Assembly: GCA_943842245.1 (NCBI GenBank)
Contig: CALTAJ010000001.1
Location: 434,001-498,000 of the forward strand
Origin: an uncultured Flavobacteriaceae bacterium
GTDB taxonomy: Bacteria > Bacteroidota > Bacteroidia > Flavobacteriales > Flavobacteriaceae
Direction of reading: 5' to 3'
DNA length: 64,000 nt
A program made the position numbers and the translations under genes. Position 1 is the stretch's first letter, and each line of letters opens with the position of its first letter. Positions 44,171-59,985 of the stretch are shown here, piece after piece. The notes under the pieces were generated by a model that saw only the letters and a program-made list of their open reading frames with translations, ran no database searches and was not told where the DNA came from.

Positions 44171-45088
44171 TTATTCAGGGGTTGAAGGTCCATCTTTAGT
44201 TGTTTGATCCCCTTCCCCTAGGTTAATTCTAAGTACAAGTTCATGTGTTCTTAGGTTTAATTGCGAGAGTCCGTTATCTGTTGGAGTCTCATAGGCATAT
44301 CCTATATCAAACATCCCAAGAGAGATCATACTCATAAGAGCCATCGAGCTATTGGTTCTTATTGAGAGTCCAATATCAAACTGATTCTGCCAACTGACCA
44401 TTCCAGTGATATCAGCTGTGGTAGGAAGACCCTTTACCTTTCTAATCATCAGTGATGGTTTTATATAGATCCCGTTAGATACAGGAAAGTCTACCCCACC
44501 TCCTAAATAAGTATGCACCCTGTCTTTAGCTGTCACTGCTAGATTATCACCATTTCTTTTTACATTAAATAGCCTGGGTATAGAAAACGAGACCCAATAA
44601 TTGGTAGCCTTAAAATAAGCTCCTGCTCCAATATTGGGATTAAATTTACTCAGACTTACCTGACTGGGATCGCCCACTGAAAGGTATGCACTTAAAGAAG
44701 TTGGATCTGCACTGTAGAAGTTACCACCACCTTTTAGCCCTAAAAACAGGGCAGACTCTCCACTGGTTTGAAGCTTGTATGAGAAGTCTACATAAGCAAA
44801 GGTTTGTTGTTCTATAAATACTTTATCAGATACCAAAGAGATTCCTAGTCCCACATTGTTTTCTCTGGCAGAGGAAAAAGCAAGAGCAAGAGTGTTGGGA
44901 GCGTCTTCAACTGAGGCCCACTGACTCCTTGAGGTAAAAGAAAGCATATTGGCCGCATCTGCTCCTGCATAGGCAGGATTGATCACATTCATATTATAAC
45001 GATAAAGTGAGTAGTAGGATTCTTGTTGACCAAAGGTCAGTTCAGACAAAACTAGCAGTAAGAATACAATATACTTTTTCATCATCAT
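44171..45088 (-). CDS. sprF: PorP/SprF family type IX secretion membrane protein
   Basis: An outer-membrane beta-barrel protein of about 305 aa (TIGR03519-type) with a signal peptide ([17 protein letters not shown]). Typical motifs are [16 protein letters not shown] near the start and [10 protein letters not shown] near the end. In Flavobacterium johnsoniae SprF is needed to secrete and anchor the adhesin SprB encoded next to it. Here too it directly follows the giant type-B cargo gene. The ATG at 45088 overlaps the cargo TGA by 4 bp, so the two are coupled. Confidence 0.9.
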
Positions 45089-48000
45089 CTTGTTAAATAA
45101 AGCCATCCTTCAAAATCTACTGAACTATTACCATCTAGATCGATCCTGTAATAATAGCTTCCTGCTGGGAGCTGTTTTCCATCTAAACTACCATTCCAAT
45201 TATTATTATAAGGCTTGGCGGTAAATAGCTCTCTACCCGTTCTAGAATAAATCCATACCTGGTTATCTAGATAGCGATCAATCTCTCTAACCTGCCAGGT
45301 GTCATTTTTTCCATCTCCATTAGGAGAAAAGAAATTCACAATCTCAATCGAGGCTCTAAGTTCAGGGTTACTAAATCCTTGAGGGAAGCTGTTTGGTATC
45401 AGTGGATCTGTTCCAGCAACTTTCTCATCTAAGTTCGGGAAGCCATCTCCGTCCTGATCATTATATGGGTCATCATCCGCACTGTCTAGCTGATCAACCA
45501 CTCCATCATTATCTGCATCTAAAAAGCTCGATTCTAAATAATTCGCCTTACCATCAAAGTCCGTATCGTCATCACGCGGATCTCCATTTCCATTTAAATC
45601 TTCATCAATGGTTAAAAGCCCGTCCCCATCATCATCGGTATCCACATGATCTAGGATACCGTCATTATCGGTATCTAGAGCAAAGCTCTCTCCAGGGAAT
45701 TTAATCTCGTCCTCAGAAGGTACTCCATCTCCATCGTCATCTAGATCATAGTGATCCGAGATACCATCTCTATCGGTATCTTTTACAAAAGCAGAGCCAC
45801 TACTGATTTCTTGTTTAGTAGGTATTCCATCGTTATCATCATCGGTGTCTAGATAATCTGGAGTCCCGTCTTTATCAAAGTCAAGTGCATCAGAAGGATT
45901 ACCGTCTAGATCTTGATCAGCAGACTCATCAATAGATTTAATACCGTCCCCATCATCGTCATCATCTAGGTAATCAGGCGTACCATCACCATCACTATCT
46001 ATTGCATCGCTAGGATTAAAGTCCCCATCGGGATCGGTTCCTTCAAACAAACTAAATATTCCATCATTATCATCATCTGGATCTAAAAAGTCTGCAAAGC
46101 CATCTCCATCGGTATCTAGTGAACCGCCATCAGCAAGAACTCGCTCTATGGCACCTTCTACATAAGAACCTTCAAAGACACTGTAGATATGATCTCCATC
46201 ATCATCAGGATCAAGAGAGTTAATCAGTCCATCGGCATCAGTGTCGGAGCTAACCAGATCTGGAGATACTTCTTTGATAGGGGTAATATTTGTGTCTAGA
46301 TCAAAGATCTCTTCACTATTTGGATCTACCTCTATAAACTCTTCTGTTTTTGGAATAGGCACATTTGGATCCCCAGCGGTAACATTAACATAAGCAATCT
46401 CTACCTCATAAACACCATCTTTATTAGCATCATCTGGGTTTTTAGGATCAGGCACATTTACAAAGGCCAAGTATCCTTCTCCAACATTACCTGTTCTTCT
46501 AGAATAAGCAGAGAAGTACTTCTGTTCTCCCTTAGCAGCAGGTTCACCACCCACTATTTTTACCTTATTCGCATCCGCTCCACCAACTACTTTTTTACGC
46601 ACCTTCCACTTCCCTACATTACGGTCGGAGTTAGGATCTGTTTTAGGACGGACCGTAGGTGTTGTTTTTCCAAATTCTCCTCCTGCAAACTTCCCAATGC
46701 CAATAGAGATGTTATGGAATTGATAAAAAGTGACAAAGACATTCTCCGATACATCAGATACACCATCATTATCATCATCAATATCTGGAATGTCTCCAAG
46801 ATCATCCGAGTCATTATCTGCATAGACATCTACAGAGTCAGGAATACCATCATCGTCATTATCACTACTAAATTCTGGGTTTAAAGGGAACTCATCTTCT
46901 GAGTCTATCACCCCATCTCCATCAGTGTCTTCATTATTAGGATCCGTCCCTTTAAGTTCTTCGATAAAGTCTGAGAGTCCATCAGCATCGCTATCTAACG
47001 GATTATCATTAGCATCTTTCGGATCACTGCCTGCTAGAAGCTCATCCTGATCGCTATAACCATCATTGTCATCATCGGTATCCTTATTATCACCTATCTG
47101 ATCACCATCGGTATCAATTTGTTCTGTCTCATCCTCTGGGAAGGCATCCTCACTATCTGGAGTACCGTCGTTATCATCATCCGGATCAATCTCATCGGGT
47201 ATACCATCCCCATCAGTGTCTTTTGTATACTCAGGATCCAGTGGGAAGGGATCCTCTTTATCATCTACCCCATCACCATCGGTGTCCGGATTCTCAGGGT
47301 CGGTGCCTAAGACCGCTTCTTCAAGATCAGAGAGGCCGTCGCCATCTAAATCTTCTGGGAAGTCTTCTTTGTCTAAAGGATCTGTACCTGCTGCGATTTC
47401 TATAACATCTGGATAACCATCATTATCGTCATCATCATCAGTATTATTACCAATACCATCAGAGTCCGTGTCCTGACTCTCTGTAGGATCGTAAGGGAAG
47501 GTGTCTGTTCTATCCGGTACCCCATCATTATCATCATCAGGGTCTAAAAGGTCTGGTATACCATCCCCGTCCTGATCACTATTGTGCTCTGGATCTAGTG
47601 GGAAGGCATCAATACTATCGTTGACCCCATCCCCATCAGTATCATAATTATTAGGATCTGTACCTATTATAATTTCTTCAGCATCAGAGAGTCCGTCCTT
47701 ATCAGCATCCTCTGGTACACTTGCCGGATTAAGTGGATCACTACCTTCTTGTATTTCTATCACATCAGAGTACCCATCATTATCATCATCTAGATCCGCA
47801 TTATCCCCTATGCCGTCTTTATCATTATCCCTAGATTCGTTAGGATCAAAGGGGAAGCGGTCACTGGCATTGTTAACCCCATCGCCATCTCTGTCAGGAT
47901 CTTTATTATCGCCTATACCATCTCCATCTAAATCACTACTCTCTGTCGGATCAAAAGGGAAGCGATCTTTGCTATCTGGAACCCCGTCATTATCATCATC

Positions 48001-49842
48001 CGGATCAATATCATTTGGTATACCGTCGCCATCAAAGTCATTGGCAAGTATCTCATTTAACGGATCAAGAGGTGCAGGGTCTTCTCCATCGTTAAAGCCA
48101 TCATCATCCGTATCAGGATCATCAGGATCTGTACCTATGATAGTTTCTTGCGGATCAGAGAGCTGATCGTCATCCCGGTCTCCAGGAGTACTATTAGGAT
48201 CTTTAGGATCAGAACCACCGATGGTTTCTGTTACATCTGAGTACCCATCGTTATCATCATCCGGATCATTATTATCCCCTATACCATCGCCATCGGTATC
48301 CACACTCTCACTAGGGTTAAGTGGGAAGGCATCGTTTTGATCCAATACCCCATCGTTATCATCATCAGGATCCTGATGATCTGGGATACCATCCCCATCA
48401 GTGTCAGTTGAACTCTCAGGATCAAGTGGGAAGTCATCCTCTCCATCTTGTATTCCATCCCCATCAGTATCGGGATTGGTAGGGTCCGTACCCAATTCTT
48501 TTTCCTTAGCATCTGGGAGGAAGTCTCCATCTTGATCCTCAGGGAACTCCTCAGGATCTTTAGAGTCTGTGCCTAATTCTAATTCTAACAGATCATCATA
48601 CCCGTCGTTATCGTCATCGGTGTCTATTAAGTCAATAATACCGTCTCCGTCGCTATCAACGTTTAACCCACCATCTAAAGGTTCTGGATCATCCTTATCA
48701 CTAATACCATCACCATCGGTGTCCGGATTAGCAGGATCTGTACCGAGCTCTATCTCTTGGTTTGTGGTCAGCCCATCCCCATCAGGATCACGTGGGTAGT
48801 CCAGAGCATCTTTAGTGTCAGTGCCGTCCTCTATCTCTACAGTATCTTCAAAGCCGTCATTATCATCGTCCGTATCCGCATTATCTCCAATCCCATCCCC
48901 ATCATAATCTGAAGTCTCGTTCGGATCAAACGGTAGGTCATCATTCTCATCTCTTACCCCATCGTTATCATCATCAGGATCTGTAGCGTCAGGTATACCA
49001 TCGCCATCGGTGTCAAGACCCGTGTTAGGATCTAGTGGCGCAGAATCAAACTTATCACTCACCCCATCACCATCGGTATCTGGATTCTCAGGATCTGTGC
49101 CTAGCTCAGCTTCCTCAACATCACTAAGTCCATCATTGTCCCTATCTCTTGGGATACTGTTTGGATTCAGTGGATCTGTACCTGCAGCCTCTTCTTGAAG
49201 ATCAGTAAAGCCGTCGTTGTCATCATCAGGATCAATACCATCGTTTAGACCATCCCCGTCTGTATCAGGCTGGTTAGAAGGATCCAGCGGATAAGGATCA
49301 TCCTCATCTAGTAGCCCGTCATTATCATCATCTGGATCTTCTTTATTTGGTATACCGTCCCCATCGGTATCGGTCTGGTAATTAGGGTCTGTCGGGAAGT
49401 CATCCTCTCCATCGATTACACCATCACCATCAGTATCAGGATTAGAAGGATCTGTTCCTAGGCCAGGCTCTAAGCTGTCTGGAAGTTTATCGTTGTCCGA
49501 GTCTTCAGGTATGCTACTAGGATCTAGTGGATCTGAACCGGCAGCAGTTTCATTAGTATCAGAATACCCGTCGTTATCATCATCGGTATCGGCGTTATCA
49601 CCAAGACCATCTCCATCATTATCCGAAGATTCGTTAGCATCTAGTGGGAAGGTGTCATTAGTGTCATTCACCCCATCATTATCATCATCTGGGTCAATAA
49701 CATCCGCGATACCATCACCATCACTGTCTCCAGGGGCAGGGTTTGCAACAAGTGGATCCGTACCGTTTGTAATCTCTAATTCATCTGACTGTCCGTCGTC
49801 CATCATCATCTGTATCAGCGTTGTCTCCAATACCATCTCCAT
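45085..49842 (-). CDS. Giant T9SS-secreted adhesin, C-terminal part (TSP3 repeats and type-B sorting domain)
   Basis: A 1585-codon open frame that continues the 50646-57722 gene after a cluster of frame changes; its first 14 codons are out of the original frame and its ATG is not a real start. Most of it is a long tandem array of Asp-rich thrombospondin type 3 repeats ([17 protein letters not shown]), expected to bind many Ca2+ ions and form a stiff stalk. A non-repetitive block (about residues 1010-1190) interrupts the array. The last about 95 residues are a gliding-motility-associated C-terminal domain ([15 protein letters not shown] to the final LTR), the T9SS type-B signal. It is followed by the coupled sprF. 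Confidence 0.9.
45400..49830 (-). repeat. Thrombospondin type 3 (TSP3) coding repeats
   Basis: Tandem DNA repeats coding for DxDxDGxxD units in about 3.7 kb, split by unique sequence at about 46250-46740. On the plus strand they appear as recurring atcatcatc and ccatcaccatc tracts, which create many false ORFs. Units vary in sequence (about 20-40 codons) with alternating short and long spacers such as [14 protein letters not shown] and FPLDPxxxxDTDGDGI. Confidence 0.9.
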
Positions 49843-50705
49843 CGTATCTATATACTCGTTTGGATCATTAGGGAAGGCGTCATCATAGTCATAGAATCCG
49901 TCATTATCTGCATCTACTTCATCGTCTACTAGAGTAATGGTAAAGTCATTGGTAGTCTGCAGCGGTTAAGACTAGTATAGTTTGATCCTGTGAAGTAGGT
50001 TTTCCTGTTGCAATCGTTACCGTTAGATCTCCATCTGCAGCTAGTGTTATCATTGTGTTAATTGTTACCGTCTGTGGTACATTCCAGTTTGCTGCGGTAA
50101 AGGTTAAACTACTTGGAGATAAGGAACTTCACCCACATCGTTAGTGAAGTAAATCGGAATGGTCACCGGCGCTGTAGGAGGTGAAGTAAGTACTGCTGTA
50201 TAACTTCCCTGCTCCCCTTCGATGGACAACCTCTACAGCAGTAAACTCTACCCCAAAAGGAACCTCTAAGACACTCACCTGCATTGGACGAGTAACTGCA
50301 TATCCTACCTTATCAGTTGCCGTAACCTCTATCTCATAAATACCATCCTGATTTGCATCGGTTGGCGAGTCAAACTCTGGGGATGGACTGATGCTTATCG
50401 CTCCTGTTTGAGCGTTGATCGTTACATTCCCCTGCGTCTGCTCCCCCTGTTATACTATAGGTAACCTGCTCACTAGCGAGTAACCGAACCTCCAGAGGTC
50501 GTCCCTTCTGTAATGGTAAGAGAAGTAGTCGATGTAATCGATGGCGTAGTATTATCTAAACTAAAGCTGCCACTAAGAATGCTTTGGTTGGTGGAGATCT
50601 TGTTAGGGGTAGTTACCTTAGTAGAGGAAACAACATCCGAAGCTTCTATAGCAAAACCGATCGTACCATCGCTATAGGTGTTCGATGCAGTAAGGGTAAA
50701 GCTTG
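49800..50705 (-). other. Cluster of eight frame changes in the giant adhesin gene
   Basis: On the minus strand the protein is readable throughout if the frame is changed near 50700 (base missing), 50480 (extra), 50430 (extra G in GGGG), 50220 (extra), 50125 (missing), 49953 (extra), 49843 (missing) and 49800 (extra). Read this way the region gives plausible Ig/cadherin-like and Calx-beta-like sequence ([72 protein letters not shown]). That links the two long frames as one gene of about 4,200 codons. Codons between the changes look normal, arguing for local sequence error or very recent damage. Confidence 0.8.
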
Positions 50706-53700
50706 CGTGTAAGTATAAGGGTTATTATTAGTCTCAACAAAAGTAACAGTAGGCTGTGGACTAAGCCCCGTAATAGTCATCGAGATCGTTGAGGCATCTA
50801 ATGCCCAAGCCGTATCTGATAAAACAGTTACTGTAATTACATCACCTTCCTTAGCATCAGTAGCTGAAGTCCCATTGTTAGAAGTAATTGTTACTGCAAG
50901 CCCTGGATCAGTGGCTCTTATATCTATGCCGGTTGATACTGCAATACTATTGGTTGCAAAAGAGGTGTCTAAATTATTGTTGTAAAGGTCAGTAACTGAT
51001 CCTCCGTTAAGATCTAAATCGGTACTTGTAAGGGCAATTTGTACACTTCCAGACTCATCCCCATCTTGAACATTATAGACAAAAGTTGCTGTGGCTGTAC
51101 CTGAGCCTGAGACATAGCTAGCATATACCTGATTACCATTAGCATCTACCATATTATCAAGCGGTAGTCTTGGTGTACCGGTTATGGTAGTCGCCTCATC
51201 AAAGCTTACGGTAAAGGTCACCGTATCGGAGTTAGATGGATTAGCATCATCATCAGTATAAATACCGTCTGGGGTAACTGCTGTAACTGCTGTAATAGTT
51301 GGACCAGTAAGGTCGATATCTAAGTCTCCTGTGGAGAGCGAAGAGAAGTTACCCGCAGGATCTACCACTACTATTTTATAAATACCTCCAGCGCTAGGAG
51401 TAGTGATCGTACCGTTATTCCCTGTGGTTTGTTTTGTAAGGTTTGTACCCAGGGTTAATGAAGTTACAGAAGACGGATTTACTAAATACGCCTTAAGATC
51501 TGCATTCGACACCGTAGAGGGAACGAGCCATACCTGGTCTGTGGCTGAAATCCCAGAAGTGGTATAGGTCGTTGTAGAAGAAGCTGCGATCTTTTTATCT
51601 GTTGCTACAGGGCTAGTAGAAGGAGAAGGCGCCGCCGTATCAATAGTTAGATCCAGTAGTGTGGATGTAGCGGTATTACCAAAGGTGTCTACAAGTTCTA
51701 TATAAAAGTCGTTGTTGTCAGAATCACTTAATGACTCACTATCAGGGATGGTTATGCTGTAATTCCCTGAACTGTCTGATGTTGAAGACACCACAAAGGT
51801 ATTTGTATCATCGTAAATATTAATTACTGTATTAGGCGAGGCTGTTCCAGTTAGTGTAGGGGTATTATCTGAGGTGATATTATCAGTAGTGCTTATCCCT
51901 AGATCTGAGACAGTAGCGAGCGTTGGAACTGTTGGTGCTTGGGGACTAGTTTGGATGGTAACATTCACAGGAGGTGAGTTTCCAGAAGTATCCCCAGCAG
52001 CGTTTTCAATGGTTACATAGAACTGATAGCTACCTGAGGTAAGAGCCGATGTAGGTGATATCGTATAGCTACCATCACTAGCAGTAGTTACAGAGACTAC
52101 AATAGAAGGCGAGCCGCCATCTTTCTCTGCATAAAGATACACAGTACCTGTAGAAGGGCTAACTGTCCCAGTAAAGGTAGGGGTGGTCACATTAGTAAGG
52201 TTGTCCGTGTTACTTGGTCCTGCATCTGAGCCAGCATCAAGATCAGGTCCTGAGGAGGGCGTAGAAGGTGGAGAAAGTAAGGTAAAGGTAATGCTATCGG
52301 TGCCCGCATAAGACCTACCATTTGTTGAAACACCAGTTACCGTTGCTGAGTAAACTGCGTCAGCTAAGTCACCCCCTGCATCTACATCCCATACGTATCT
52401 AAAGGTAGAGCTTGACACTACTGTCATAGCTACATCACTAATTACACTGCCAATACTTATCGTAGCTGTGGGGGACATAGCAGAGGAGAAGGTAGCGGTA
52501 ATGGTAACCACAGAGCTGTTAAGCACATAGTTATCATCATCAGTATCGGTTAGAGTAACAGAGGGCGCAGGGCAAGTTCCCCATTTGGGTAGTTTCTCAT
52601 TATAATCTGATGAACCTATCCAACTATAAGCACGGGCAGAGAAATTATAAGACCCCCCCGGAGAAACTCCATAAATACTAGAAACACACCATCCGGAGAG
52701 GTCTTGATTGAATTCTTCTGCATCATCAAACATATATTGCATACCAGTGACATTCGAAGTATTCCAACTACCAATATCTTGATTAAATTTACTTGTTCTA
52801 GCTTGGTAGCGTCCAGCAAACATTGATCCCATATCTCTTACATTAGAAGTATTCCAGTTACCAATATCTTGATTAAATGCAGGTGCGATATAAAACATAT
52901 ATGACATGGTTATGTTTGTAGCTTTCGAGAAATCCCAATTCAGCGTATTTGATGTTACTCCGCTAGCATCACCATTGTTAAAGGCTGTAGCCTCTGCAAA
53001 TAAATATTGAAAATTAGTTATGTTCGATACGTCCCATGAACCTATATTTTGATTAAATGATTCAGCCTGTCTAAACATACTTTCGACATTAGTTACACTG
53101 GACATATTCCAGGAACCAATATCTTGGTTAAAATCTTCGGCATTGTAAAACATACTATTCATAGAGACAACTGAGTCAGGTTCCCAGGAGGAAATATTCC
53201 CATTAAAGCTTGTTGCGTTAATGAACATATAGGTCATAGTGGTAACATTTGAGACCTCCCAATTTAAGTCCTGATTGAATACTGGTGCACCATTAAACAT
53301 GCTCTGCATATTTTCAACACTAGAGGTATTCCAAGAGCCAATGTCAATATTGAACACATTAGTTCTACCAAACATTGATTCCATATTGATCACATTCGAA
53401 GTATCCCAATTCAATGTATTAGTGCTAACCCCAGAAGCAGATCCGTTATTAAATGTTCTTGCTTTGAAAAACATGTGATCCATGTTTTCCACATTTGAAG
53501 TATCCCAACCACCAATATTTTGATTGAAATTATCGGCGGAAAAAAACATATAACTCATATCCCTAGCACTAGACGTATCCCAATAACTTAAGTTTTCATC
53601 GAAACCATAAGAATTAATAGGAGAATTTTTATGCTGAAACATGCCATGGAAAGTGGTCACTTTTGAAGTGTCCCAGGTACTAATATCATTAGAATTAAAG

Positions 53701-56700
53701 AAACTCTCTAGGTGTGAATCAGCCGAACCATTGAAGTAAAATAAATCCGACATATCCGTAACCAAGCTTGTTACAACCCCACCCCAATCAGAATCACTCA
53801 ACGATTTTGCTTTTAAAGAAGTATTGTCATATGCAGTGTATAAAACGTTTCCTATGTACCCTGTATCTCCATCGCTACATCCTCTACATTTTACTGTGAC
53901 CCCATTAGCATCTAGGTAGAAAGTAGGACTGATTGTAAAGGTGATACTGTCGGTTCCAGCATAGATATTTCCGATAAGATCTGTTCCACTTACTGTAACT
54001 GAGTAGGCTCCAGCAGCAAGGGTTGGAGTCGATGTATTCCAGTTATAGGTATAGTCATTTGTACTTCCTACTCTTGTCATCGCTACATTGGTTACTACTC
54101 CGGTTATGTAAATCGAAGGAGTGGCAGTCATGGCTTCAGAGAAACTAGCAGTAATAGTTACCGTATTAGTTGGTGAAAAAGTAGTGGATATAATATTGTC
54201 TGCAGCATTATCAGTAAGGGTTACCGTTGGTAATGTGGCATCTAAAGTAAAGGTGATGCTTTCTGTACCTGAGTAGGCATTGCTGGCCTTGTCAATACCA
54301 GCAACGGTAGCGTAGTAGGTTCCGCTTGACAAGCTATTTGAAACAGTAAAGGTATACTGATAAGAATTATTTTTATTACTTACCCATATCCATCCACCAT
54401 CAGGCTCTACAGCACCTGTGTCCTGGTATGCACCAATATGGTAATTTTCAGAATTACTAGAAATTACGGAATTTAAGTAATCTAGCTCAGCTTGAATATT
54501 AATCACAACCAGATTACCACCCAGAGTTATTGCATTATCTTTTGCCGTTGTCCAATTTGAGCTATTAGTACTTTTATAGTAACTATGACCTTGATAAGAT
54601 CCAACATAAGTGAAATTTGAAATCGTGGAATTTCTATTATCAGAAAATTCAATAATTGATTTCTGGCTAATACTTGAAGGTATATCATTTATTTTACTTC
54701 TATCTAATTCTAGGACATCTTCACCACCTGAGTTGTTTGGTTCACCAGTGTTCCAAAAGTTGCTGTTCGCTTCAAGTACCAGCCCATTCTGAGGAGACAT
54801 AGTTACATTGGTTACTACACCCGTAATTGAAATCGTTGGCGTAGCAGTCATCCCTTCATTAAAAAATGCGGTTATGGTTACCGAATCAGACACGGCTAGA
54901 ATGTTATCTGCATCTGTATCACTTAAAGTGGTTGTAGGTGCAGTATTATCCACAGTTAAAGTAATACTATCGTTTCCTGCGTATGTATTTCCGGCAGGAT
55001 CTGTTCCTGTAACAGTGACGGTATAACTTCCTTCAGTAACTGAGGAGATATCCCAATCATAGGTCCAAGTGGTACTACTTGTTGCAGTAAGGGCTACATT
55101 ATCTATAGATGAACCTATTGTAATTGTTGGGGCAGTTGCCATCGCCTCATTAAAGGTGGCAGTAACGGTAATATTGCTATCCGCAGATTTTACTGTATTG
55201 TCCGAATCGCTAGATGTAATGGCTACAGTTGGTGCAGAAGTATCTACTGTAAAGGTGATACTTTGTGTCCCGGATACATAAGCATTTCCGATAAGATCTG
55301 TACCGCTTACTATGGCTGAATAGGCTCCATCAGAAAGGGTGCCTGAAGAAGTATCCCAAGTAAAGGTATACGAATTTGTTCCTGATACAGGAGTCATAAT
55401 GACATTGGTAACAATTCCCGTGATCGAGATTGTAGGAGTAGCGGTCATGGCTTCAGAGAAGCCAGCGGTAATGGTTACTACCTGAGAAATAGAAACTAAA
55501 TTGTCACTATCAGTATCAGTTAAGGTTACCGTTGGCGCTGTGGTATCTAAAGTGAAGGTGATGCTGTCTGTTCCTGAGTAGGCATTGCCTTGTAGGTCAG
55601 CTCCTGAAACAGTTGCTGTATAAGTTCCGTCATTAAGGCTGCCGCTTACGTCCCAATTGAAGGTGTAGCTATTTGTTCCGCTAATCTGGGTCATGGCACT
55701 AGAAATAGAAGCTCCTGATATTAAGATAGTAGGAGTAGCTGTCATCGCCTCACTAAAGACAGCAGTTATGGTTACAGTATCTGATGCTGCCAAGAGGTTA
55801 TCATCATCGGTATCAGAGAAGGTTAGTGTTGGGCCAAATGAATCTATTGTTAAGGTGAGTGATTCAGTACCCACATAAGTTCTACTATTAGTATCTGTTG
55901 CAGTTGCTGTTACATTTAGATCAGTTTCAGAAGTAATTGAACCTGGCACTTGCCAAAAATAAGTCCAAACTGTATCAGTACTTGTTTGCGTCATAGCAAC
56001 ATTAGTAACCACTCCTGCAATTGAAATTGTTGGAGTTGGACTCATACTTAAGGAAAATGTTGCTGTTAGAGTTACCTGACCTGTAGAAATTATATTGTCT
56101 GAGTCATCAGATGTTAAAACTAATGTAGCAGTTGTAGGGCACGTTCCAAATTTTGGATACGTAGATGAAGAATTGGCTGCCATTGGTGTAAGAGAAGCAA
56201 AATCCGTAGCCGTTGTAATATTTGGCACACACCAAGTTGATAAGTCATGAGACATGTTTGTTCTTAGAAACATATAGTCCATACTTCCACTACTACCAGA
56301 TACATCCCAGTTTTTTATCGAATCACTCCCTCCGTTGTTAAAATCATTAGCACCCGTAAACATTCTCGCAAAAGCGCTCGATAATCCGCCAGATACATCC
56401 CATGAACCTATATCTTGGTTGAATTCTTCAGCACCCGCGAACATACTATCAAAAGTTACTACACCCGAAACGTCCCACCCAGTAACACCACCTCCACTAC
56501 CAAGTGGTTGATTAAATTTTTCATTATTAGCAAACATAAACGTCATATCAGTCACTTTAGAGGTGTCCCAATTCCTTATATCAGGACTTCCCCCATTATT
56601 GAAGACATTACGTGTTTGCTCCCAAAACATATGCTCCATAGTAGTTACATTAGAAACATCCCAAGCTCCTATGTTTTGATCGAACTCTTCAGCATCTTTA

Positions 56701-57722
56701 AACATTCGGTACATAGTAGTTACACTAGCAGTTTTAGTAGCCCAAGCCCCAATGGGTTGATTGAATCTAGCAGCATACTCAAACATACGGCTCATATCAG
56801 TTACACTGGAAACGTCCCAAGAGCTAATGTTATCATTGAAACGATCGTTATTCAAAAACATCCCTTTCATTGTAGTCACTTTTGAAGTATCCCAGGTGTT
56901 AATCAGTGTATTCGTTCTATTATTAAACATGTAACTCATATCGGTAACATTAGAGGTGTCCCAGTAAGTTAAATCATAATTATACGGATAGCTTGCATTT
57001 GAAAACATGTTTCCCATATCTATCACATTAGAGGTGTCGAAATTATCGAACACTAAACCACCACCACCAGTAACATTTTTTGATGCAAAGGCAGAAGACA
57101 TGTCGGTTACAAGTGTAGTACATAACTGGTAATTATATCTTGCTCCCCCCTGATTAGAAACCCAAAGTCTGACTTCATTTGTTAAACTATTTTCAGAAGG
57201 GAAGGAGGCCCCTGCACTTGTGTTATTATCAACAGCTTTATACAGTGTCCCACTTACCATACCGTAATCTCCTGCGCTACAACCAGAACATTTTATAGTC
57301 ACTCCATTGGATGCCAAGTAAAAAGTAGGGCTTATAGTAAGTGTAAGGGAAGCATTTCCGGAGTAGGGTGAACTATTGGTATCGGTTGCAGTAGCGGTAA
57401 CATTTACTGTAGTACCCGAAGAAATATTAGAAGGTACTTGCCAGTAGTAGATCCATACTGCAGCTGTAGTGCTTTGTGTCATAGCAACATTGGTAACTAC
57501 CCCCGATATTGAAATCGTTGGCGAAGCAGTCATATTCACTGAGAAGGTAGCTGTTAGGGTCACCTGACCTGTGGTAATTATATTGTCAGAGTCATCAGAG
57601 GTGATGGTGAGAGTTGATGGTGATTGGGCTGACAGACTAAAGCTTGAAATAATAAAAAACAGTAGACAAAAAAGAATCCTATTTTTTGATTTACAATGAA
57701 ATATATTTCTGATTAAAGGCAT
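50646..57722 (-). CDS. Giant T9SS-secreted adhesin, N-terminal part (Ig-like, BspA-type and lectin modules)
   Basis: A 2358-codon frame; its last about 15 codons are out of frame after the first frame change. A signal peptide ends near residue 32 (FIISSFSLSAQ). Then come an Ig-like domain (33-130), BspA/DUF285 block 1 (131-527), Ig-like repeats with the TDxDxDN/VTITAxFSEAMTATPTI pattern (528-1270), a C-type lectin-like insert (about 977-1120), BspA block 2 (1272-1717), another Ig-like repeat and bacterial Ig/cadherin-like domains (1720-2345). This mosaic of binding modules is typical of gliding or attachment adhesins such as SprB. It starts 10 bp inside the preceding small gene, so it is probably cotranscribed with it. 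Confidence 0.9.
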   Translation of the reverse strand: MPLIRNIFHCKSKNRILFCLLFFIISSFSLSAQSPSTLTITSDDSDNIITTGQVTLTATFSVNMTASPTISISGVVTNVAMTQSTTAAVWIYYWQVPSNISSGTTVNVTATATDTNSSPYSGNASLTLTISPTFYLASNGVTIKCSGCSAGDYGMVSGTLYKAVDNNTSAGASFPSENSLTNEVRLWVSNQGGARYNYQLCTTLVTDMSSAFASKNVTGGGGLVFDNFDTSNVIDMGNMFSNASYPYNYDLTYWDTSNVTDMSYMFNNRTNTLINTWDTSKVTTMKGMFLNNDRFNDNISSWDVSSVTDMSRMFEYAARFNQPIGAWATKTASVTTMYRMFKDAEEFDQNIGAWDVSNVTTMEHMFWEQTRNVFNNGGSPDIRNWDTSKVTDMTFMFANNEKFNQPLGSGGGVTGWDVSGVVTFDSMFAGAEEFNQDIGSWDVSGGLSSAFARMFTGANDFNNGGSDSIKNWDVSGSSGSMDYMFLRTNMSHDLSTWCVPNITTATDFASLTPMAANSSSTYPKFGTCPTTATLVLTSDDSDNIISTGQVTLTATFSLSMSPTPTISIAGVVTNVAMTQTSTDTVWTYFWQVPGSITSETDLNVTATATDTNSRTYVGTESLTLTIDSFGPTLTFSDTDDDNLLAASDTVTITAVFSEAMTATPTILISGASISSAMTQISGTNSYTFNWDVSGSLNDGTYTATVSGADLQGNAYSGTDSITFTLDTTAPTVTLTDTDSDNLVSISQVVTITAGFSEAMTATPTISITGIVTNVIMTPVSGTNSYTFTWDTSSGTLSDGAYSAIVSGTDLIGNAYVSGTQSITFTVDTSAPTVAITSSDSDNTVKSADSNITVTATFNEAMATAPTITIGSSIDNVALTATSSTTWTYDWDISSVTEGSYTVTVTGTDPAGNTYAGNDSITLTVDNTAPTTTLSDTDADNILAVSDSVTITAFFNEGMTATPTISITGVVTNVTMSPQNGLVLEANSNFWNTGEPNNSGGEDVLELDRSKINDIPSSISQKSIIEFSDNRNSTISNFTYVGSYQGHSYYKSTNSSNWTTAKDNAITLGGNLVVINIQAELDYLNSVISSNSENYHIGAYQDTGAVEPDGGWIWVSNKNNSYQYTFTVSNSLSSGTYYATVAGIDKASNAYSGTESITFTLDATLPTVTLTDNAADNIISTTFSPTNTVTITASFSEAMTATPSIYITGVVTNVAMTRVGSTNDYTYNWNTSTPTLAAGAYSVTVSGTDLIGNIYAGTDSITFTISPTFYLDANGVTVKCRGCSDGDTGYIGNVLYTAYDNTSLKAKSLSDSDWGGVVTSLVTDMSDLFYFNGSADSHLESFFNSNDISTWDTSKVTTFHGMFQHKNSPINSYGFDENLSYWDTSSARDMSYMFFSADNFNQNIGGWDTSNVENMDHMFFKARTFNNGSASGVSTNTLNWDTSNVINMESMFGRTNVFNIDIGSWNTSSVENMQSMFNGAPVFNQDLNWEVSNVTTMTYMFINATSFNGNISSWEPDSVVSMNSMFYNAEDFNQDIGSWNMSSVTNVESMFRQAESFNQNIGSWDVSNITNFQYLFAEATAFNNGDASGVTSNTLNWDFSKATNITMSYMFYIAPAFNQDIGNWNTSNVRDMGSMFAGRYQARTSKFNQDIGSWNTSNVTGMQYMFDDAEEFNQDLSGWCVSSIYGVSPGGSYNFSARAYSWIGSSDYNEKLPKWGTCPAPSVTLTDTDDDNYVLNSSVVTITATFSSAMSPTATISIGSVISDVAMTVVSSSTFRYVWDVDAGGDLADAVYSATVTGVSTNGRSYAGTDSITFTLLSPPSTPSSGPDLDAGSDAGPSNTDNLTNVTTPTFTGTVSPSTGTVYLYAEKDGGSPSIVVSVTTASDGSYTISPTSALTSGSYQFYVTIENAAGDTSGNSPPVNVTIQTSPQAPTVPTLATVSDLGISTTDNITSDNTPTLTGTASPNTVINIYDDTNTFVVSSTSDSSGNYSITIPDSESLSDSDNNDFYIELVDTFGNTATSTLLDLTIDTAAPSPSTSPVATDKKIAASSTTTYTTSGISATDQVWLVPSTVSNADLKAYLVNPSSVTSLTLGTNLTKQTTGNNGTITTPSAGGIYKIVVVDPAGNFSSLSTGDLDIDLTGPTITAVTAVTPDGIYTDDDANPSNSDTVTFTVSFDEATTITGTPRLPLDNMVDANGNQVYASYVSGSGTATATFVYNVQDGDESGSVQIALTSTDLDLNGGSVTDLYNNNLDTSFATNSIAVSTGIDIRATDPGLAVTITSNNGTSATDAKEGDVITVTVLSDTAWALDASTISMTITGLSPQPTVTFVETNNNPYTYTQALPLLHRTPIAMVRSVLL
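52565..53935 (-). repeat. BspA/DUF285-type repeat block 2
   Basis: About 450 codons of repeats with the core WDTSNVxxMxxMFxxAxxFNQDIGxW, each near 25-40 residues, starting at FYLDANGVTVKC and ending at KWGTCP. The array is preceded and followed by Ig-like modules. BspA-type repeats are known from surface proteins that bind host or matrix molecules. Confidence 0.85.
54360..54800 (-). other. C-type lectin-like domain, halves in permuted order, inside an Ig-like domain
   Basis: The C-terminal half of a CTLD (FWNTGEPNNSGGEDVLEL, INDIPSSISQKSIIEF) comes first. It is followed by the N-terminal half (GHSYYKSTNSSNWTTAKDNA, LGGNLVVINIQAELDYL, GGWIWVS). The insert splits an Ig-like repeat between VTNVTMSP and NSYQYTF. 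The EPN and ED residues expected for Ca2+/sugar binding are retained. Confidence 0.75.
56135..57335 (-). repeat. BspA/DUF285-type repeat block 1
   Basis: About 395 codons of BspA-type repeats (WDTSNVTDMSYMF, WDVSSVTDMSRMFEYA, FNQPIGAW) starting at FYLASNGVTIKC and ending at FGTCP. It has the same entry (CSGCSAGDYG against CRGCSDGDTG) and exit motifs as block 2, so the two blocks arose by duplication of a whole module. Confidence 0.85.
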
Positions 57723-57904: not shown

Positions 57905-58165
57905 TTACAGAGCTAATATTTTATTAGTAAGACTTTCATTTCTTTTGAGCTTGAGTTTTTTTCTTATACTAGAGCAAGCATTAAAGTATGTGCTATTAGA
58001 AATTTCCAATTGGCTTTGTATTTGTTTTGAATCATAGTTCAATCTTAAATACATGCTAATTTTAATTTCTCTAGGAGTCAAATTAGACGCTGACTTACAC
58101 AATTTGCTTGTAAAAGAGGGATAAGCTTTTGCAAATTCAAGTTCAAATGATAAATTAGTTTGCAT
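57905..58165 (-). CDS. Small stand-alone LuxR-type HTH protein
   Basis: An 86-aa protein that aligns over its length with the last about 80 residues of the 561-aa regulator at 58300: FAKAYPSFTSKL against FIEVYPDFYNKL, SNLTPREIKISMYLRLN against ASLSQTDLRLASYIKMN, SSIRKKLKL against YRLSKKLNL. So it is a DNA-binding module without sensor. It is the first gene of the adhesin unit and has a direct-repeat site and promoter upstream. Probable regulator of the adhesin or modulator of the large regulator. Confidence 0.7.
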   Translation of the reverse strand: MQTNLSFELEFAKAYPSFTSKLCKSASNLTPREIKISMYLRLNYDSKQIQSQLEISNSTYFNACSSIRKKLKLKRNESLTNKILAL

Positions 58166-58299: not shown

Positions 58300-59985
58300 T
58301 TAAATACTAAGTAAAAAGGAATTTAAGTTTTGGTCTTTTCCAAGGTTAAGCTTTTTAGATAGCCTGTATCGTTGGCTTTCAACTGTTCGTAAGGATATTC
58401 CAGAGATGGATGCAATTTCGTTAATTGTGTGGTTCATTTTGATATACGAAGCGAGTCTTAAATCGGTTTGTGATAAGCTCGCAAAAGCATTTAGTTTATT
58501 ATAAAAATCAGGATAAACTTCAATAAACATTTTATCAAAATCACTGTAAGCATTTTCTGATCTAATGACTAAATCTAATTCTTTAGATAAGCGATTAATC
58601 GATACTTCGCTATCAACTTTTCGAGAATCCACTTCCTTCTGAATTTTTTTCAAATAATCATTTCTTTGAATGATGAAATTGGTTTTGCTCATCAATTCTC
58701 TATTTTTTTCTTCTAGTTTAAATGAGATGGCTTTTTTCTCAATCTCTAATCGGCTTCCTTTTTCTTTTTGTAAATTAAAATTAATTCGAATTGTAATCAA
58801 GGAGTAAAATAGAATCAAAGAACAAATAATTAAAATATATAGATAAGTGTTATATTTAATTTTACTTTCATTTATTTCTCTCGCAGTATTGGCTAATTGA
58901 ATCTGTGTCTCAAAAGTATTTAATGTTTTAAAAAGTTTAGAATTAGATGGTCCTGAAGAAATTAAAATTAATGAGTCTTTTATGTTTAAAAGCTTCGAAT
59001 CTTGCCCTTTATACTTGTAAATTTTTTCTAATACTTTGAAATTGTATTTTTTCTCAGTATCGTTCAAATTTTGAATTTTAAGATTTTCGTTAGCGACTTG
59101 CTCAGCCTCTTTAAAATTATCTAATCCTAGATAACATTCTGCTATTCTTGACCCTAAAGCATGAATCTCAGATGGGAATGCCTTTAAAATTTCTTTTGCC
59201 TTGAAAAGATAGGTAAGTGCCAAGTCATATTTTTTCACAGATTGGCTATAGGCACCGTAAACCAGTTGAACATAACCCCAATTTCTAATCAATAGGGAAT
59301 TGTCTTGCTTCTCATCAGCTGTTTGATAGACGCTTTCAGCTTCTTTTAATTTATTTTGAGCTGCTAATTCATCTCCTTGTAATAATTTGACACTTATAAG
59401 TTGCGATAAAGAGTATAATATGTCTTCCTTCTTATCTTTTTCAAGCCTTCTTTGGTAAATTTGATAATAAATTTCTTCGGCTTTTTTATAGTTCCCTTTC
59501 CTTTCTTCAATCAATCCAAGGTTTGAATTGGCAGTGTTTAGACCATAAAATTTAGCATTTTCGTCTCCTATCTTTTCAAATAAACTCAGGGCCTGTTGAT
59601 ATTTTTCAGCAGCTTTTTTGTAATCTCTATTTTTAAAATAAATGCTACCAATATTGAGAATTGCCCAGGGTGGTTGATCTATATTTGGAAAGTTTTTATC
59701 ACTTTTTGGAAGCGTAGAATAAATTTGAACTGAATTATTTAGATAGTTTAATGCACTTGCATACAACCCCATTTCAATGAGGATTTCTCCTAAAAGTGCA
59801 TACGTATTTTGTTTTTCTGAATCTGGCTGACTATTTGCTGTAAGCTTATCATATTCAAGTCCGTATTCAACAGCTAGACTTGGATTTGAGGTTTTGTATT
59901 TTAAAATAGAGTCTCTTAATTGCTTTCTGTTTTGAGCAAAAGCAAAGCAGGTTATTAATAATAAAAAAAGATAGATTCTAAACAT
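58300..59985 (-). CDS. Membrane-bound TPR regulator with C-terminal LuxR-type HTH
   Basis: A 561-aa protein. Signal peptide (YLFLLLITCFAFAQ), then TPR-type helical repeats at about 30-330 (NLGLIEERKGNYKKAEEIYY, ILNIGSIYFKNRDYKKAAEKY). A single membrane helix lies near 377-398, a coiled coil at about 400-455 and a HTH at about 485-561 (INEIASISGISLRTVESQRYRLSKKL). The layout lets an outer TPR sensor signal to an inner DNA-binding domain without a kinase, a type common in Bacteroidetes. It sits just upstream of the adhesin unit on the same strand with 134 bp between. Confidence 0.82.
   Translation of the reverse strand: MFRIYLFLLLITCFAFAQNRKQLRDSILKYKTSNPSLAVEYGLEYDKLTANSQPDSEKQNTYALLGEILIEMGLYASALNYLNNSVQIYSTLPKSDKNFPNIDQPPWAILNIGSIYFKNRDYKKAAEKYQQALSLFEKIGDENAKFYGLNTANSNLGLIEERKGNYKKAEEIYYQIYQRRLEKDKKEDILYSLSQLISVKLLQGDELAAQNKLKEAESVYQTADEKQDNSLLIRNWGYVQLVYGAYSQSVKKYDLALTYLFKAKEILKAFPSEIHALGSRIAECYLGLDNFKEAEQVANENLKIQNLNDTEKKYNFKVLEKIYKYKGQDSKLLNIKDSLILISSGPSNSKLFKTLNTFETQIQLANTAREINESKIKYNTYLYILIICSLILFYSLITIRINFNLQKEKGSRLEIEKKAISFKLEEKNRELMSKTNFIIQRNDYLKKIQKEVDSRKVDSEVSINRLSKELDLVIRSENAYSDFDKMFIEVYPDFYNKLNAFASLSQTDLRLASYIKMNHTINEIASISGISLRTVESQRYRLSKKLNLGKDQNLNSFLLSI

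Follow-up and report, generated by a model that had tools for sequence, protein, structure and literature searches.

An indel patch in a giant surface-adhesin gene of a marine Flavobacteriaceae genome, most likely an error of the assembled sequence

The closest described counterpart of the gene studied here is the SprB-SprF system of Flavobacterium johnsoniae, in which the PorP-like protein SprF is the binding partner of the type B CTD adhesin SprB; the proposal has been made that PorP-like proteins serve as anchors for the type B proteins that belong to them (PMC9143113). As in that system, a very large repetitive surface protein with a CHU_C domain is encoded here beside a gene of the PorP/SprF family, in a genome that also holds SprA. 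Unlike SprB, the adhesin has repeats of the DUF285, Big_13 and TSP3 families, with no SprB repeat family found by Pfam. A second precedent concerns the sequence itself, namely the indel-fragmented genes of long-read or low-coverage assemblies (Kastor, PMC12007338), where single-base indels likewise split a conserved gene whose orthologs are intact. The changes described below differ from these in being packed into 0.9 kb and in lying mostly outside homopolymers, whereas residual errors of PacBio circular-consensus (CCS) reads are, by a figure cited in PMC12007338, mainly homopolymer indels (92%).

The window, that is, the whole 64,000-nucleotide stretch analysed, is contig C1 434001-498000 of a 2.08-Mb genome, in four contigs, from an uncultured marine flavobacterium. 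An earlier note on its sequence had drawn attention to a short, frame-broken part of one giant gene. Using frameshift-aware alignment to orthologs, measures of coding constraint and a scan of the same genome, we determined the number and setting of the frame changes and weighed the explanations for them.

The adhesin gene, its neighbours and its orthologs

The giant surface-adhesin gene occupies positions 45085..57722 of the minus strand (12,638 bp, or 12.6 kb); it is one gene in orthologs and is read here as two ORFs. ORF 1 (50646..57722, minus; 2358 aa), whose final residues are out of frame, has a hydrophobic N-terminus resembling a signal peptide when judged by eye, followed in Pfam searches by DUF285 repeats, Big_13 and Big_3_3 Ig-like domains and a weak C-type lectin match, and it contains no secretion domain. 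ORF 2 (45085..49842, minus; 1585 aa), whose first residues are out of frame, has no signal peptide and consists of TSP3 repeats and then a C-terminal CHU_C type IX secretion signal domain (Pfam E 1.7e-23, residues 1499-1583). About 0.8 kb without any long ORF lies between them. The prediction that annotators would wrongly report two genes, one lacking the secretion signal and the other the signal peptide, agrees with this domain content.

The 3' end of the adhesin gene is overlapped by a gene for a PorP/SprF-family outer-membrane protein (44171..45106, minus; PF11751, E 5.6e-56), which, by analogy with SprF, is likely to be the dedicated secretion and anchoring partner of the adhesin. There are six PorP/SprF matches in the genome, and SprA_N matches (PF14349) in a stop-free frame of 2486 aa identify SprA, the translocon of the type IX secretion system (T9SS). 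Taken whole, the gene reads as that of a type B CTD substrate of the T9SS, a known kind of gene, and both secretion and anchoring of its product are predicted. Two possible regulators lie just upstream of it: a small ORF matching GerE (57905-58165, minus) and a gene whose TPR product gives a weak match of LuxR type (GerE) (58300-59985, minus).

The closest public relatives are uncultured marine Flavobacteriaceae. By their titles they are single-cell-style isolates (AG-, SCGC), MAGs and members of the MS024-2A group, which the literature assigns to the NS5 marine group (PMC9122927). Orthologs from MS024-2A / NS5 (for example L024, L027, L030 and L036) have the same domains through the patch, mostly at 69-83% identity over the aligned region, and are open in one frame where the window gene is frame-broken. 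In total, twelve ortholog regions are open across the patch, including those with single-cell-style (AG-, SCGC) or NODE contig names in their titles, and one is broken (L026, from FRAM18_bin161). As single open genes the same-genus orthologs span 3,579 to 5,399 codons, a range that includes the single frame of about 4,200 codons expected by the earlier note. An ORF of 307-313 aa comes after the adhesin in L024, L030, L032 and L036.

Some irregularities were seen among the public matches. The adhesin locus is seemingly present twice, about 428 kb apart, in QFDA01000001.1, a 1.06-Mb contig of SCGC AAA795-G10 (L032, 942972-966079, and L033, 515185-538280), where other matches are also doubled, reflecting either duplication or assembly error. 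L045 and L048, on two contigs of one MAG, AC_MB531 (CALSPF010000002.1 and CALSPF010000001.1), agree in length, identity and match position, as though a single stretch had been included twice. Finally, a contig binned as Alphaproteobacteria (L041, WTHW01000002.1) holds a piece of the flavobacterial adhesin family, probably through a binning error.

Indels and coding constraint within the patch

Frameshift-aware alignment to each of three intact ortholog proteins (L009, L010, L013) gave eight net frame changes, at approximately 50704, 50475, 50430, 50225, 50130, 49950, 49844 and 49797, with conserved protein on either side of every one. The eight changes originally reported, and their coordinates, therefore hold for the net frame but not as a total of lesions, which a lower-penalty profile of five orthologs raised to 13 single-base events in the patch (49795..50704, minus), or 14 if the change at ~50130 represents two gains. 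In the profile alignment the net '-2' near ~50225 resolves into two separate one-base losses, and two compensated -1/+1 pairs (50052/50036 and 49983/49967) keep the net frame while garbling a few residues. Indel density in the patch is thus about 13 per 910 bp, or 1.4%. Under identical settings, four ortholog controls (L023, L024, L025, L027) yielded zero events. The flanking 7.1 and 4.8 kb, said earlier to be free of frame changes, proved to be so as far as they could be aligned: most of the gene was compared with L027 and L024, events at the artificial ends of aligned pieces were set aside, and no further events were found in the alignable remainder. Were the 13 events uniformly distributed over 12,638 bp, the probability that all would fall within 910 bp would be of the order of 1e-13 (13 x 0.072^12).

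The sites themselves share no evident guiding feature. A homopolymer run of 4 lies within 16 bp at 2/13 indel sites, against a background of 14%; most sites lie outside homopolymers, and tract-guided slippage does not fit. Simple-sequence repeats beyond a 2.1-copy 9-mer were absent from the patch, a repeat and palindrome check found no strong hairpin there, and megablast against plasmids returned no match. The patch terminates inside the first TSP3 repeat.

Once the frame is followed, the patch contains no stop codons. Differences were scored as private only at sites where all other sequences agree; on this basis the patch has 12/368 private changes at codon positions 1 and 2 (orthologs 18/374, 20/376, 11/367, 13/369 and 0/356) and 6/150 private amino-acid changes (orthologs 9/153, 11/155, 7/151, 8/152 and 0/144). 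Third codon positions in the patch vary far more than first and second positions, and coding constraint is intact between the indels and on both flanks. The lack of stops and of any private excess, together with the third-position variation, indicates that ordinary selection acted on the patch until the indels appeared. Consequently, the indels are either very recent or were never present in a living cell.

Frame integrity elsewhere and in FRAM18_bin161

The window and 38 further stretches of 20 kb (824 kb, ~40% of the genome) were scanned with a coding-frame HMM for frameshifts and with a search for coding-like ORF gaps. A first, permissive HMM gave many calls that were gene junctions, and the model was tightened; on inspection, all but one of the stricter calls were gene-end-like or lacked confirmation as frameshifts. 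The coding-like ORF gaps were likewise rejected as broken genes, since small ORFs were found inside them, two (L114 and L108) being also searched in the genus; for that of L108 (C1:879-880 kb) the explanation is incomplete. The call that remained is an isolated one-base gain at C1:247,610 (L134:17610), which splits a large gene open in four relatives and is either an error or a true mutation.

No second indel patch was found in the 824 kb scanned. In the known patch the HMM itself picks up just one event, because the composition of the adhesin is unusual, so the absence of patches elsewhere rests on the estimated power, which was 43/60 for a 13-indel patch in 900 bp and, within long ORFs, 34/80 for one indel. 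With one isolated frameshift and no second patch, base accuracy in this genome appears high and the patch a local exception.

The broken ortholog of FRAM18_bin161 (L026, G033:C4 11413-15696) carries seven one-base indels within 4.3 kb, most of them where the TSP3 repeats are, and two gains lie near the position matching the 3' end of the patch. When 227 kb of FRAM18_bin161 were scanned, the stronger frameshift calls gathered in the adhesin and in L173, and most ordinary stretches had no calls; many of the calls are putative. L173 (G033:C3:125001-145000) is a second region with TSP3-like repeats, and its several frameshift calls are putative. Sequencing in the FRAM18 project was by Illumina and by PacBio Sequel II, whose circular-consensus reads were Illumina-corrected and then assembled with metaFlye (PMC8254474); from its 10 contigs we infer that FRAM18_bin161 belongs to the PacBio set. 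With two genomes, the idea that giant adhesins and the indel errors of long-read assemblies go together is a lead and not a result. Such adhesins may be so variable among strains that few reads would stand behind the consensus, and errors would be kept.

Consensus error and real lesions compared

We consider, with a probability of about 0.9, that the frame changes reflect errors in the assembly of a poorly sequenced patch, and that the organism has one uninterrupted gene. Read coverage of the stretch of ~0.9 kb would have been very thin or noisy, and scattered one-base gains and losses would have been retained in the draft consensus, with the flanks well supported. Since errors in the patch are not homopolymer-dominated, they are unlike the PacBio CCS profile and are better fitted by raw or single-pass long-read sequence; the source may be nearer to that, or to another low-quality bridge. 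The preference of the earlier note for poorly resolved sequence over decay is supported by the retained constraint, by a sampled genome nearly free of frameshifts and by orthologs that are single open genes. A point that tells against an artefact is that a very recent set of real lesions would likewise leave no substitution trace, unlikely as such lesions are. One version of this would be a pseudogene, genuine but very recent, the adhesin having been inactivated in this lineage and lesions having accumulated afterwards. The gene as assembled cannot yield a full-length protein, and a surface adhesin is plausibly dispensable; nevertheless, the lesions are limited to 7% of the gene instead of being spread, the outer parts of 7.1 and 4.8 kb are still open, and about 13 indels stand without in-frame stops or substitution excess, a combination that argues against gene decay. 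We regard a pseudogene as improbable.

Had the indels been real and arisen together, they would mean that a living marine flavobacterium had undergone, in one of its surface adhesins, a localized burst of indel-only mutation, which we hold to be very unlikely. Error-prone DNA synthesis or repair, acting locally in a burst, could produce many one-base indels at once, and would suit the tight cluster, its sharp edges and the presence of gains as well as losses. Such synthesis is, however, expected to leave substitutions as well, and the patch shows no substitution excess; nor is there a guiding tract or repeat at the indel sites, or a second example in 40% of the genome, so that the chance of this origin seems extremely slim. 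Phase variation commonly acts on large surface adhesins, and a switch of this kind, or programmed frameshifting, might be thought of here. That would need one tract, against the ~13 unrelated sites observed, most of them outside homopolymers and without a simple-sequence tract (the 2.1-copy 9-mer being the only simple-sequence repeat in the patch), and the orthologs are open; its probability is slighter still. Indels without substitutions, placed outside homopolymers and within sharp edges, speak together against decay, slippage and programmed shifting.

With the consensus-error reading preferred, the true gene would have one frame of ~4,200 codons and encode a type IX-secreted cell-surface adhesin held by the downstream PorP/SprF protein. 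The patch is most likely not a biological feature, and the adhesin itself is of a known kind. The result is a warning for annotation, as a single 4,200-codon adhesin would be recorded either as two incomplete proteins or as a pseudogene. Furthermore, since the same gene is broken in FRAM18_bin161, from a project with PacBio reads, the apparent loss of a giant adhesin in a comparable assembly from this group calls for verification before it is given a biological meaning.
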